A stretch of DNA of 61,423 bases from Ectocarpus siliculosus. Lineage: Eukaryota > Sar > Phaeophyceae > Ectocarpales > Ectocarpaceae. Under the pieces are notes generated by a model, which was given only the letters and a program-made list of their open reading frames with translations, did no database searches and was not told the origin of the DNA. Below, piece by piece: positions 44,617 to 61,423 of the stretch (its first letter is position 1; each line of letters begins with the position of its first letter). Location: assembly GCA_000310025.1 (NCBI GenBank), contig FN649733.1:697460-758882 (forward strand), given 5' to 3'. Made by a program: the position numbers and the translations under genes.

Positions 44617-47600
44617 CTGCCTGCCACCCGAGTGACCGCGCCCAGAAGGAATGATGTATATCCACGGCTTGACGAGCGATTACACGACTTGCGGTGGTGT
44701 CGTATTCCAGCGACTTCAGCACTATCGACTTCTGCCGGCTTGTTGTCTAGAACTCGGCACGCGCACTCTCCACTTGGTGTTGCACAGGGGCGAATGTGCC
44801 CGTCCAAGCAGCACACTTAACAGCGTGTCTCTCCCTTGCAATCCTTTATTCCTCGCCTGTAAGCACAACCAGCTCCAACTTCAATCAATCCATTCTCCTT
44901 CGACGCAGGTGTAGGCTACCTCGGCCGTTAGCTCACGACCAGAATATATTCTGGCTTACAGTCACCTCCGGTGGTGCTATTTTGCTCCATACTCTCCAAC
45001 CAGTCCCAATTGGTCAAGACTTGATTTTTCGTCGAACTCCCTCCCTGGCTCCCTGACGTACTAATAGTCCGTTCGAGTCGTCTCCTTCGAGGGATCTGGC
45101 GGCGATGACCTCTCGAGCTGCAGCTACCGACCGGAGAGCGACTTCGTCGTGTTCCCGAGCGCGGCGTCGGTCTGTTGGTCCGAGCTATCGGAGGAAGATC
45201 TCGCGCGGGTGCGTCGGGTAATCCTCATCGACAGCAGGCAAGGACGTCAGTAGAACGAATTTTTCGCGCATGTTATTTTTGTCAATTTGAACAATGTTCA
45301 GCAGGCAAGGACGTAGGACGAATTATGAGGCTTTTATTTTTTCATGAATACAAGTGTTAAGAGTCCTGCTTGGTGTGGAGCAGTGGTCCACCCTGGTCTT
45401 CGTTGCGTGTAATACAAGTAATCAACATCAAACGTCGTATGTATTGCGATATTTTGAGTACTTGAAGTCCTCCTTGTCCATGTGTTGTTTTGAGTACTTG
45501 GTGTCCTCCTATTGGGCAAACGGTTCGTGTCGGAAGGAAATGATGGACGTTGAAACCGGAAAGTCGGCTTTGGGAGTCCCGATGACCGGAAGGACAAAAA
45601 AGATGAAAACACGGTAGCAAGTTGGCTGGGATTGATTGGGTTTGTCCAGGGTGTCAATCTTTCGCGAAGGTGTCGTTGAAAGTTGTAGCCGGTGGCGCGA
45701 ACGTGAAGCATGCCTTTGCATCCAGGGTTCCGACCAGGGTTCCGAAGTGTTGACGAAGGTTACTAAGTACTAGGTGTGGTTATTTTCACTAGTTGAACTG
45801 GCTCAAATCACTGGTAGATCCATTTTGGTCTAAAGAAGTTATGTAATGCGGGAAAGCATTGTCATCAGTTGACGTAATTGGTTAGCCTAACCTTTTCAGG
45901 ATCGTGAATGACCTCCTCGATTAAGACTTTCATCAAACAACCCTCCTCCCCAGCTCCCCCGGTGTTTGCCATCGGGGTTGGGTTTTCGTCGCTTGGCAAC
46001 GACGTTGTTAAGCAAGCCCCCCCCCTCGGTGTTTGCCATCGGGATTGGGTTTTCGTCGCTTGGCAACGACGTTGTAAAACAAGCCAATTCACTTCGTGAA
46101 CTCGGCAACCAGGTTACCGGTGTTTTTTTTACCTCTGTTTTTTTTTGGCGATAACCATAATGGTGGTCGAGTAGATCATGTTGCGGAGTTGAGAAACCTC
46201 ACTCCGCGCAAGGGGAATAATCGCACCACGTTGTGTTAAATTGGTCAAGCATCCTCGAGGCAGTTACACAGTGCTTATAACTGTCTCTGGAAGTGAAAGC
46301 ACCAGAAAATAAATTAAGTTATACGCAGCTGTCATCCGTACGCAAGGAAGTAAGCACAAGATGCCGAACACCCTTAGCAGGATGCAGCTCGCCCTTCATG
46401 CGACTCGCCGAATACCTCACGGCGCTTCGCGCTTGGTGATGTGAGAGCCTGTCCGGTGAGAACCCGGCGTGCTCCGTCCCGTTTTTGGATGGATGCGAGG
46501 TCAATGGTCTAACGACTACGGCATGCACGACTATGAGTACACACACACCCCTACAGCGGCGTCCCGACCAACCAACCTTCCCCCTACACCTCTCTTGCAT
46601 TAGCGTGTTTTGCGAGTTCCGTTGCCCTTTATGGCCTGATCTCTTTACCAATTGATGGGGGATATTTCGGTGTTTTGTGCTGCTTGTTTCCACTCGCAGG
46701 TGGGTCAACACGGGTGCCGTAGTCGGCCACCCCAAGCTCAAAGGACTCCGCCACGTTCGCATCCGCGAACCCCCCGCCGTGAGCCAGTTTTGGCGGTGGC
46801 ACACAGAAGGGGAGGGCCACATATGCACCGCAGAAGGTACGGAGTTGCAACTGCATCATCCCCCCCCCCCTGTTTTGTCGTGGCGAACCCTAGTTAAGGT
46901 CGGGACATGGGCACGAGGACTTACGTGAGGTCAGGACGCTTTTGGTCTCTTGTTGTGTCGCTGCCAACACTGTTTGACGTTTCTTTTTCTTGGGGAAGTG
47001 TTGGTCGCAAATTGTTTTGAAGTTTTGCCCATCGAACTTGCTCGGGTAAGATGTACCGAGCACCCGTGTCGCTCGCCCCCCCCCCCCCCCCCCCCCTGTT
47101 TTGGGGGGAAATAATTTTTTGGAGGGTTTTTGTCTCCTGAAAAAAAGGGGTTTGAAAAACCCCCGCTGGAAGGGCCAAAAAAAAAGGGCCAAAAAAACCC
47201 TGAACAAAGAGCCTGGCAAAGGACCCCACATCCTTTTGGGCCCAACTTAAAATTTCCCCAACCGTGGGGACAAACCCCTGGCCCCCCGGCGCCGGACCGG
47301 TCTTGGCCCCCAACTAAAACACCCCCCCCGCCGGGACCTACAAACCCCTGGCTACCCACCCCCGAAACCGTTTTGGGACAACTGAAACCCCCCCCCCCTC
47401 CGGGAAAAAACCCAACCCGTCCCCCCCCAACTTAAAAAAAAAAAAAAAAATTTTGAAAACCCCCGTAACCCGGAAAATTGTTTGAAACCCCCCCACCGGG
47501 ACCCCCCCCGGGGGTTGGCTTATCCCCCTTCCCGGAGAAGAAACCCAAACCAAACAACAAATACCTTGGGGACTATGGAACGGAAAACCCTACCCCCCCC

Positions 47601-50600
47601 GCTGAAAACCAAGGGGCCGCCCCCCCCGGGGGGAAAGGGGGAGGGCGGTCCCCCCCGGCCCCAAGAAAAAGGCNNNNNNNNNNNNNNNNNNNNNNNNNNN
47701 NNNNNNNNNNNNNNNNNNNNNNNNNNNNNNNNNNNNNNNNNNNNNNNNNNNNNNNNNNNNNNNNNNNNNNNNNAAAGGATTCCCCCCCTTTGCCTTCCGG
47801 AACCCCCCCCCCGGGACCCATTTTTGGGGGGGGCCCCCAAAAGGGGGGGCCCCCATTTCCCCCCCAGAAGGTGGGGGGTGCCAACCCCCTCTCCCCCCCC
47901 CCCCTGTTTTGTTGGGGGGACCCCTAGTTAAGGTGGGGACAGGGGCCGGGGGACTTACGGGGGGTCGGGGCGCTTTTGGTTTTTTGTTGGGTCGCTCCCA
48001 CCCCTTTTTGGCGTTTTTTTTTTTTGGGGAAGGGTTGGTCCCAAATTTTTTTGAAGTTTTCCCCCTCGAACTTGTTCGGGTAAGATGTACCGGGCCCCCG
48101 GGTGCCTCCCCCCCCCCCCCCCCCCTCCTCTGTCTTCGGGGCAATTACTTTTGTGGAGGTCTTTGCTCTCGTGAACAGAGGTGCTTCGAGAACCACCGGC
48201 TGACAGGCCAATAAAAAACGGCCGATGACAACCATGACGAATGAGCTTGCAAATGTACCCTACATCGTTTTGGCACTAGCTTAAATTTACCACAACGTTG
48301 TGTACAAACCCTTGCACACCGGCAGCAGTACCGTTCTTGCACTCTAGCTAAACTACCGCCACGTCGTGTACGTACAAACCCTTGCATACCGACACCTGAA
48401 CCGTTTTTGGACTAGCTGACACCGCCGCCACATCGTGCAAAAACCCAATCACGTCGCCACCAAGCTTACAACAAGAGAGAAAATTCTTGATAGCACCAGT
48501 AACCTGTAAATTTGTTTGATACGCACCAGCGTGTACTCTCCGCGGTGTTTGCATTATCCCGCTTCCTGACGATGACACCAAAACGAACGACAGAGTACGT
48601 TGCGTACTATGGACCGGAGAGCCATACGCCCTCAGCTGATACCAACGGCGCGGCCTCCCCAGGGTGTAAGGGGGTAGGCCGTACCACCAGGCCCCAATGA
48701 AGAGGGCAGGAGGGAAGATGTGCGTGATGTTCGGAGGTAGAGAGGCCCCTCAGATGGGACAGCAAGGGGTACCAACATCATACTTTTACTATCCTAGCCC
48801 CCAGCTGTGCCCGGTCTACGGTACGCCTCAGTTGCACCCGGGCCTGCCCACCCCCTGGTTGGCGCGTGCGTTCTTGATGCATCGTGCTTGTTGACGGCTC
48901 GTCGTCTCTGTCCCATTTTTGTTTTGCTCAAAGCGACGTACCTCGTGCTGAAGGACTTCGAGGAGGCGACGGGATTGGTTACTCGGGGTGGTCGGCTCGA
49001 GGACATCCTCTTCCTCTTTGCCCTCATGGGCTCGAGGATCAAGGTTCGGCCGGCGTATTAGTCCGAACGTCACTCGTTTGTCGGCTTTGTGCGACCGGAC
49101 CGGACGTTGTAGTTCCCGTTCGGAGATCAGTCTTCGGAGATCGGTCGTGTGCAACCTTTAACACAAACCATTTCTGATACCATTCTCTTACCCGGCAAAA
49201 GTTCGGTTTATTAGTAGCGTCTCACGTCCTAGTCCCTAGGCTCGTCGTCTTAGGTTCTCCTTTTCGTGTCTCAAAGTACTGTAGCCTTTATCTTGTTGAT
49301 GATACCATTGTTTGTTTTGTTTGGGTTGCAATCGTGGCGTGAGTATTTATGGGCCAGCATTAGTCAATCGTTTCTGTACGCTTCATCCATGTCGTTCTCG
49401 TGTTCAACCCCCATGGGGGCGCACAGAAAAAATCGGTGTTGCGAAAGACAGAAAACAATTACGCCTTCTGATTGGGTGATGCGGACAGTTCCAGACCTAG
49501 GTTCAGGGGGGAACGCGGCGTCCCCACTTTAAGTCGAAACACTTGTTTTCCCCGCTCGCGGTTTCCTGTCAGGCTGCCTACGAGTCCGATCCATCTAAGT
49601 TGGGGAAGAGCTGCCCTTCATCGGAAGAGGCCAAGCAGGTGAGGGGTGGTACGCGAGGGTACACGTCCGGATATAACCACGTGGTTGATTTTGTCGACAG
49701 CTAGGTGCGCGACAAGCTGCACGAAAGCAACCAATCTGCGACAGCTTCCCTGTTGTTGGTGGTGGTGTTGTTTGATGTTGGTGTGCAACAAGGCTTGGTG
49801 GAGCATGCGAGCAACGATGTTTGTAGTGTTGTTCGATGTTGGTGTGCAACAAGGCTTGGAATAGCATGCGATACGATGGTGACGGTGTTCGTGTTTTTTT
49901 TATATGTTGGTGTGCAACAAGGCTTAGAAGAGCACCCGAGCAATTGCGAAGCCCACTGCGTCGGCTTTTTCAAGGCATCCTTCCGTTTCGAAGACAAACC
50001 AATCAATGTGAGCTCCTTTGTCTCCCCCCCCAACGAATCAACCTACCAGGTGGCCGACTCATGTTTCAAACCTCGTAGGAACATCAGCAGGCAGGATATA
50101 TCCCTTACAAAATAGGTTGGCAACCTCCCACCTCTTCACCCCTGGCTGTCGTAATTGTGGCATGCGAGGGTCTGTTCACGCGTGATGATGCGTGACCCCC
50201 CCCCCCGATTCCCACCACTTTTCGATCCTTCAGCGCCGACGAGTTCGACTTGTTCAGCTAGATCGCCTCGTCAAGGCCAAGTACAAGGGGCTGGACGCGT
50301 TGAGGGAGAGGGACGGGGACGAGGCCGCGATTGAAGAGTTCTTCCGAAGACGTCGCGGGGAAAGGTATGTAGATGTTATCGTAGGGTTGAGGGCGTTTCC
50401 TGTGTTTTCAGCACAACAACGCGGCGTCCACGGCACGGCATTCACTGCATCGAGCCGTAACACTACGCTGCTTGAAGCAATAATCTCGTGCTTGCAAGTA
50501 ACAAGTCATGCTTGCAGTTTGTTTTGGTCTACGGAATCATCATGTGTGTGTGTGATGCCCGCTGGTGGCTTCAAAACCACACCCGTGAGGTGTAAAAAGT

Positions 50601-61224: not shown

Positions 61225-61423
61225 GGCGGCGGGGGGGGGGGGGGGCGTACTCTTATGTTTTGCATGCCCTTAGCGGTTAGACCATTGGCCCCCCTTTTCC
61301 AAAAGGGACTCTTCGCGGGGAAAAAAGGGGGGGGGGGGGGGGGGACTTTTTAAAACCCCGCCCCAACCTTTTAAACCTTTTCCCCCTTTTTTTTTAAAGG
61401 GGGGGGGGGGGGGGCCCCTCGAT
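61225..61423 (+). other. SINE head fragment and degraded contig end
   Basis: A G run, CGTACTCTTATGTTTTGCAT and CCCTTAGCGGTTAGACCATT match the head of family C. After about 61290 the sequence collapses into runs of G, A, T and C like the gap flanks at 47.1-47.7 kb, so it is probably unreliable base calling at a contig end. Confidence 0.75.

Follow-up and report, generated by a model that had tools for sequence, protein, structure and literature searches.

A 100-N gap in the Ectocarpus siliculosus assembly most likely separates two damaged readings of one 934-bp stretch

Introduction

Duplicated overlapping contigs (DOC), in the part of their description consulted here, are neighbouring contigs that overlap at their ends and have been laid side by side, and the false duplication that results can carry exons (Kelley and Salzberg 2010, PMC2864568). 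As far as that part of the source goes, the locus described here is like a DOC in its layout, being made up of overlapping contig ends set side by side. Three other described systems resemble it in one respect or another, namely homotype false duplications (PMC9516828), negative gaps (PMC3504050, PBJelly) and the stutter peaks of Sanger reads (PMC10643650). The examined part of the text of PMC9516828 contains no phase-lag pattern at a C run, and among the papers listed in searches of an open-licence library we found no description of phase-lag false gaps.

We analysed a stretch of 61,423 nucleotides from Ectocarpus siliculosus (the window), in which a 100-N gap lies within a gene for a DTW-domain protein. 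The initial annotation had proposed that this gap is false. Here we examine the overlap between its flanks, the kind of damage that each flank carries, its effect on the gene model, and its recurrence at other long C runs.

Results

The flanks of the gap, which is the sole run of N in the window, had been claimed to be the same 934 bp (Table 1). Compared without gaps at an offset of 1034, they are identical at 677 of 934 positions (72.5%), and the match begins with the opening base of the right contig and ends only with the final base of the left one (46740/47774 to 47673/48707). When 20 offsets were scanned more widely, 1034 came out on top with 846, followed by 1033 with 705, and the best ungapped dovetail among the overlap lengths tried was that of exactly 934. 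As a control, the left flank of each of 14 gaps was paired with the right flank of every other, giving 182 cross-locus pairs. The dovetail z at the window gap was 30.4, against 23.5 and then 11.1 for the top controls; the control at 23.5 consists of two flanks that share a dispersed repeat. The flanks thus agree as had been claimed, and the match reaches both contig ends with the gap between the copies. The equal length of the two segments is no independent evidence, because an ungapped dovetail gives equal lengths by definition. A single gapless alignment had also been expected. The best ungapped dovetail does have the full 934 positions, while a gapped version (686 of 936 columns identical) adds two compensating pairs of one-base gaps, all of them at 47365 to 47665, where the left copy is garbled, and leaves the net offset at 1034.

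A genome search with the clean right half of the overlap (48120-48707) returned one full-length place; the search tool can miss matches and skips common words. Eighteen weaker matches touch only the last 105 bases of the query (484-588, about 48603-48707), none covering more than 99 of the 588 bp of the query, with identities of 74-87%, and the first 483 bp of the query were found once. The segment 48603-48707 is thus probably a short dispersed repeat, with 18 other places in the genome, inside this intron of the DTW gene.

Table 1. Features of the locus, in window coordinates
Feature	Position	Strand	Remark
Exon 4, clean copy	46700..46836	+	numbered as in the initial annotation (exon 2 not located); AG before, GT after
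Left copy of the 934-bp overlap (end of left contig)	46740..47673	+	clean before the C run, garbled beyond
Intron after exon 4, as assembled	46837..48933	+	2,097 bp; about 1,063 bp once merged
Second, shorter C run	46860..46870	+	11 C; mismatch rate of the right copy higher beyond
C run, left copy	47076..47096	+	21 C called; its end overlies T bases of the right copy
100-N gap	47674..47773	.	most likely a placeholder, the gap having been estimated as small or negative
Right copy of the 934-bp overlap (start of right contig)	47774..48707	+	garbled before the C run, clean beyond
Ghost of the last 97 bp of exon 4	47774..47870	+	71/97 identical; no stop in the exon frame; GT follows
Same C run, right copy	48108..48125	+	18 C called; its start overlies other bases of the left copy
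Exon 5, to the stop codon	48934..49061	+	joins exon 4 in frame as ...CTAEATYLVLKDFE...

The damage to the two copies is complementary. To the left of the long C run it is the right copy that is garbled, and to the right of the run it is the left copy. This is seen in the fraction of bases identical to the adjacent base, which rises in the left copy from 0.32 before the run to 0.59 after it and falls in the right copy from 0.61 to 0.27, the median of the window being 0.27. Outside this locus and the suspect end of the window (0.50), the highest of the values listed was 0.405. The claim that the left copy is readable up to the C run and corrupt after it, with the right copy behaving in the opposite way, is borne out by these values. 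In the two copies, then, the damage lies on opposite sides of a long homopolymer and, if the reads ran in the directions that we infer, begins at it. The two clean edges of the run suggest a length of about 16 (about 47076-47091), its exact length not being readable. Mismatches are denser beyond the second, shorter C run: followed in the presumed direction of reading, the right copy disagrees at 16 of 106 and 19 of 99 positions before the 11-C run and at 34 of 117 beyond it. At its downstream end (61231-61423), where at least 2,518 N follow, the window looks similarly garbled after G runs; this is probably a further contig end with phase lag.

The mismatches also have a polarity, an argument that goes beyond the initial annotation, in which it was not reported. 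To the right of the C run, with the right copy taken as true, the left copy has 184 mismatched bases, of which 181 repeat the true base before them and 62 the true base after them; in the null of 2,000 draws, the mean for the preceding base was 79.1 (maximum 99) and that for the following base 55.6. To the left of the run, with the left copy taken as true, 71 bases of the right copy are mismatched; 64 of them repeat the true base after them (null mean 32.3, maximum 46) and 44 the true base before them (null mean 25.7, maximum 39). The wrong base in both halves is therefore mostly the one that a read would just have passed if it had entered from outside and traversed the C run, as a phase-lag artefact, in which wrong bases copy the base just read, would have it. 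When the roles of the copies were swapped, matches to either neighbour numbered only 13 of 71 and 60 of 184, with null means of 11.5 and 45.1. The polarity is mixed to some degree: in the left part the 44 matches to the preceding base exceed the null maximum, and in the right part with roles swapped all 60 matches include one to the following base (null 39.3, maximum 55). Over the whole 934 bp, a neighbouring base in either copy explains 246 of 247 scored mismatches, a loose criterion that about 50-75% of mismatches satisfy in long unrelated control pairs. Taken as sequence patterns, these polarities fit phase lag after homopolymer slippage in reads of opposite directions.

The gap lies in the intron that follows exon 4. 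When exons 1, 3, 4 and 5 were joined, the predicted protein matched the Pfam DTW domain (PF03942) with 45.6 bits against a cut-off of 33.7, a score that assumes a GC donor after exon 3 (AG/GCAAG at 45238) and the junction D-S-R-W; a score of 34.9 resulted when the residue read on from exon 3 took the place of the junction W. The intron before exon 4 (45238-46699) accordingly seems to use a GC donor. No Pfam match was obtained for the three single-exon stretches and no NCBIfam match for the joined protein. A search of the genome for DTW domains listed one place, on contig C33, and the present gene was not among the matches, which we attribute to its short exons. The gene is presumably DTWD1, the name given in the initial annotation, rather than another DTW paralogue.

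Replacement of the last 32 residues of exon 4 by those of the ghost lowered the DTW score to 22.4, below the cut-off. Merging the two copies had been said to delete a ghost of exon 4; such a ghost is present, but only of the last part of that exon (Table 1). The merge also mends the intron, as claimed, for the flanking exons join in frame and the intron is shortened by about half. The 1,034 bp said to be removed is about the right size, though exact only to within a few bases because the length of the C run is not readable in either copy.

We then looked at other long C runs. A search for a pattern of 21 C in 189.5 Mb found overlapping matches, 4,092 of them forward and 4,128 reverse. The 100 forward matches listed, on contig C1 up to 2.93 Mb, correspond by our count to 26 distinct runs, all of which fall within the 23 stretches examined, 22 of them 3.6 kb and one 7.7 kb long. 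N was present in 21 of these 23 stretches against 2 of 14 stretches of 10 kb taken at fixed positions, although some of the N may not be gaps. The fixed-position sample offered a single gap with both flanks, and this showed no dovetail. Gaps with both flanks longer than 300 bp were found in 12 of the 23 C-run stretches, and gaps of this description outside the window numbered 13 in all. The later sample is biased towards this fault, because its stretches were picked at C runs.

Among the 12 gaps near runs of at least 21 C on C1, three (L018, L024 and L034) show a clear dovetail and two a possible one. All three clear cases are 100-N gaps with dovetails of 398-408 bp, and by the loose criterion a neighbour in either copy explains 145 of 148 scored mismatches at L018, 141 of 145 at L024 and 114 of 118 at L034. 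Polarity is strong at L034, where, in a gapped alignment with one copy taken as true, 108 of 111 mismatches equal the following base and 37 the preceding one (null 29.6). The right part of L018 has it as well (preceding base at 88 of 109 mismatches; following base at 55, null 31.0), and in the short left part of L018 it is not significant (7 of 12). L024 shows no polarity, with 101 of 133 mismatches equal to the preceding base, 87 to the following base and 130 to either neighbour, and it is surrounded by real local repeats (80% over 461 columns). Its garbled right start agrees with the end of the left contig in 247 of 387 columns, with 130 of 133 mismatches explained, and with the repeat further right in 181 of 394, with 131 of 191 explained. 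The left contig's end thus fits the garbled start far better than the repeat does, and L024 was therefore retained as a clear case.

The two possible cases are short: L031 overlaps by 86 bp, with all 18 mismatches explained (z 5.3), and L032 by 61 bp, with 7 of 9 explained (z 4.7), while a control pair made up of L036 and L031 has a z of 5.0, a neighbour explaining 21 of its 22 mismatches. The gap at L021, of 4,083 N, had a z of 23.6 and was not counted, since 31 of its 179 mismatches lack a neighbour explanation; what is more, the control pair made up of the L031 left flank and the L021 right flank scores 23.4. L010, L025, L028, L030, L033, L036 and L037 gave no dovetail. The flanks of L021, L028, L031 and L036 share dispersed-repeat matches across loci, and such repeats can mimic overlapping contig ends when only a simple dovetail test is applied. 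Elsewhere on C1, the one-sided contig ends at L019, L022, L035 and L038 have a stretched, neighbour-copied look beside C or G runs.

Discussion

We conclude, with a probability of roughly 0.97 as judged from the assembled sequence, that a single-copy stretch of 934 bp is represented twice and that the 100-N gap is an assembly artefact. The proposal of a false gap is supported by the complementary damage, by the outward polarity of that damage and by the three clear cases on another contig; the fault extends further than had been claimed. In the proposed sequence of events, reads coming from the left would lose phase at the C run of about 16-21 bases, and reads coming from the right would lose phase at the same run. 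Beyond it the base caller would report the true base mixed with the one that the read had just passed. The assembler would then leave the two contig ends unjoined, because they agree at only 72.5%, and the scaffolder, with a contig order that probably came from mate pairs, would set them side by side with a 100-N placeholder. The underlying cause may be polymerase slippage in capillary (Sanger) reads.

Other origins of two similar segments have to be weighed against this. Two segments in direct order that are 72.5% identical could be a real tandem duplication of about 1 kb, both copies having decayed and the gap having fallen between them. However, decay would then have to strike opposite halves of the copies, changing sides at the same C run, and would nearly always have to replace a base by its neighbour, mostly the neighbour on one side; the match, moreover, stops exactly at both contig ends. 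We regard such a duplication as extremely improbable. Nor is there much room for two haplotypes or alleles placed one after the other, the classical false duplication of heterozygous genomes. That explanation has precedent on its side, since false duplications, according to the consulted part of PMC9516828, come mainly from haplotype divergence and to a minor extent from sequencing errors, and PMC2864568, in the part consulted, deals with the haplotype case. Yet the median identity of the cases in that part of PMC2864568 is 98.1% against 72.5% here, and haplotype differences predict neither an adjacent-base identity of about 0.6 in the garbled halves nor mismatches that copy a neighbour; on these grounds we give the haplotype explanation hardly any weight.

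The contig ends might, finally, derive from a dispersed repeat close to the C run, as copies that have diverged. The 18 weaker genome matches suggest that such a repeat exists, and repeats of this kind do confuse the matching at L021 and L031. Those matches, however, are confined to the short segment at the end of the query, the rest of which was found once, whereas the overlap covers all 934 bp and its mismatches are neighbour-explained almost without exception, well above the share in the controls. A repeat origin is accordingly most unlikely, and the reading of one stretch represented twice is the one that we retain.

The false gap has no bearing on the biology of the organism, and the value of its recognition lies in the correction of the assembly, here of one gene model, which is corrected by the merge. 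In this assembly, intron lengths, calls of duplicated exons and local duplications beside 100-N gaps should be checked where they lie near C or G runs, and the polarity test is a cheap means, independent of the reads, of separating read damage from real divergence. If the ratio of 100 matches to 26 runs holds throughout, the 8,220 matches to the 21-C pattern correspond to some 2,100 runs and, at 3 in 26, to about 250 false gaps, a rough figure drawn from one contig. We lean towards the view that hidden false duplications form an entire class at long C or G runs, perhaps hundreds of them, each below the standard identity cut-off and each to be found, without reads, by the polarity of its damage.

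With respect to known systems, the comparisons that follow hold for the parts of the cited papers that were consulted. The cause of DOC (PMC2864568) is haplotype divergence, while that of the present locus would be out-of-phase base calling; DOC are called from an alignment longer than 300 bp, close to the ends of both contigs and with an identity above 95%, and the overlap here, with 934 bp at 72.5%, falls outside that definition. Homotype false duplications (PMC9516828) are alike in that the false copies are mostly separated by gaps and differ by sequencing errors rather than haplotype differences, but they were classed by k-mers and read depth, whereas the present locus is known from its assembled letters. 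The negative gaps of PMC3504050 are likewise adjacent contigs that ought to overlap, judging by mate-pair distance, but do not by sequence; its six rows of them range from -1 to -43 bases, compared with a hidden overlap of 934 bp here. Stutter peaks (PMC10643650) are similar in that additional signal flanks the true peak immediately on one side or the other, in association with homopolymers and polymerase slippage. They were described in single traces, not in assembly, with peaks less than a third of the main height, whereas at the present locus a large fraction of positions were called as the shadow base. The kind of fault is thus already known, from negative gaps and from false duplications, and its identity of 72.5% places the present case below the 95% cut-off of one detector.
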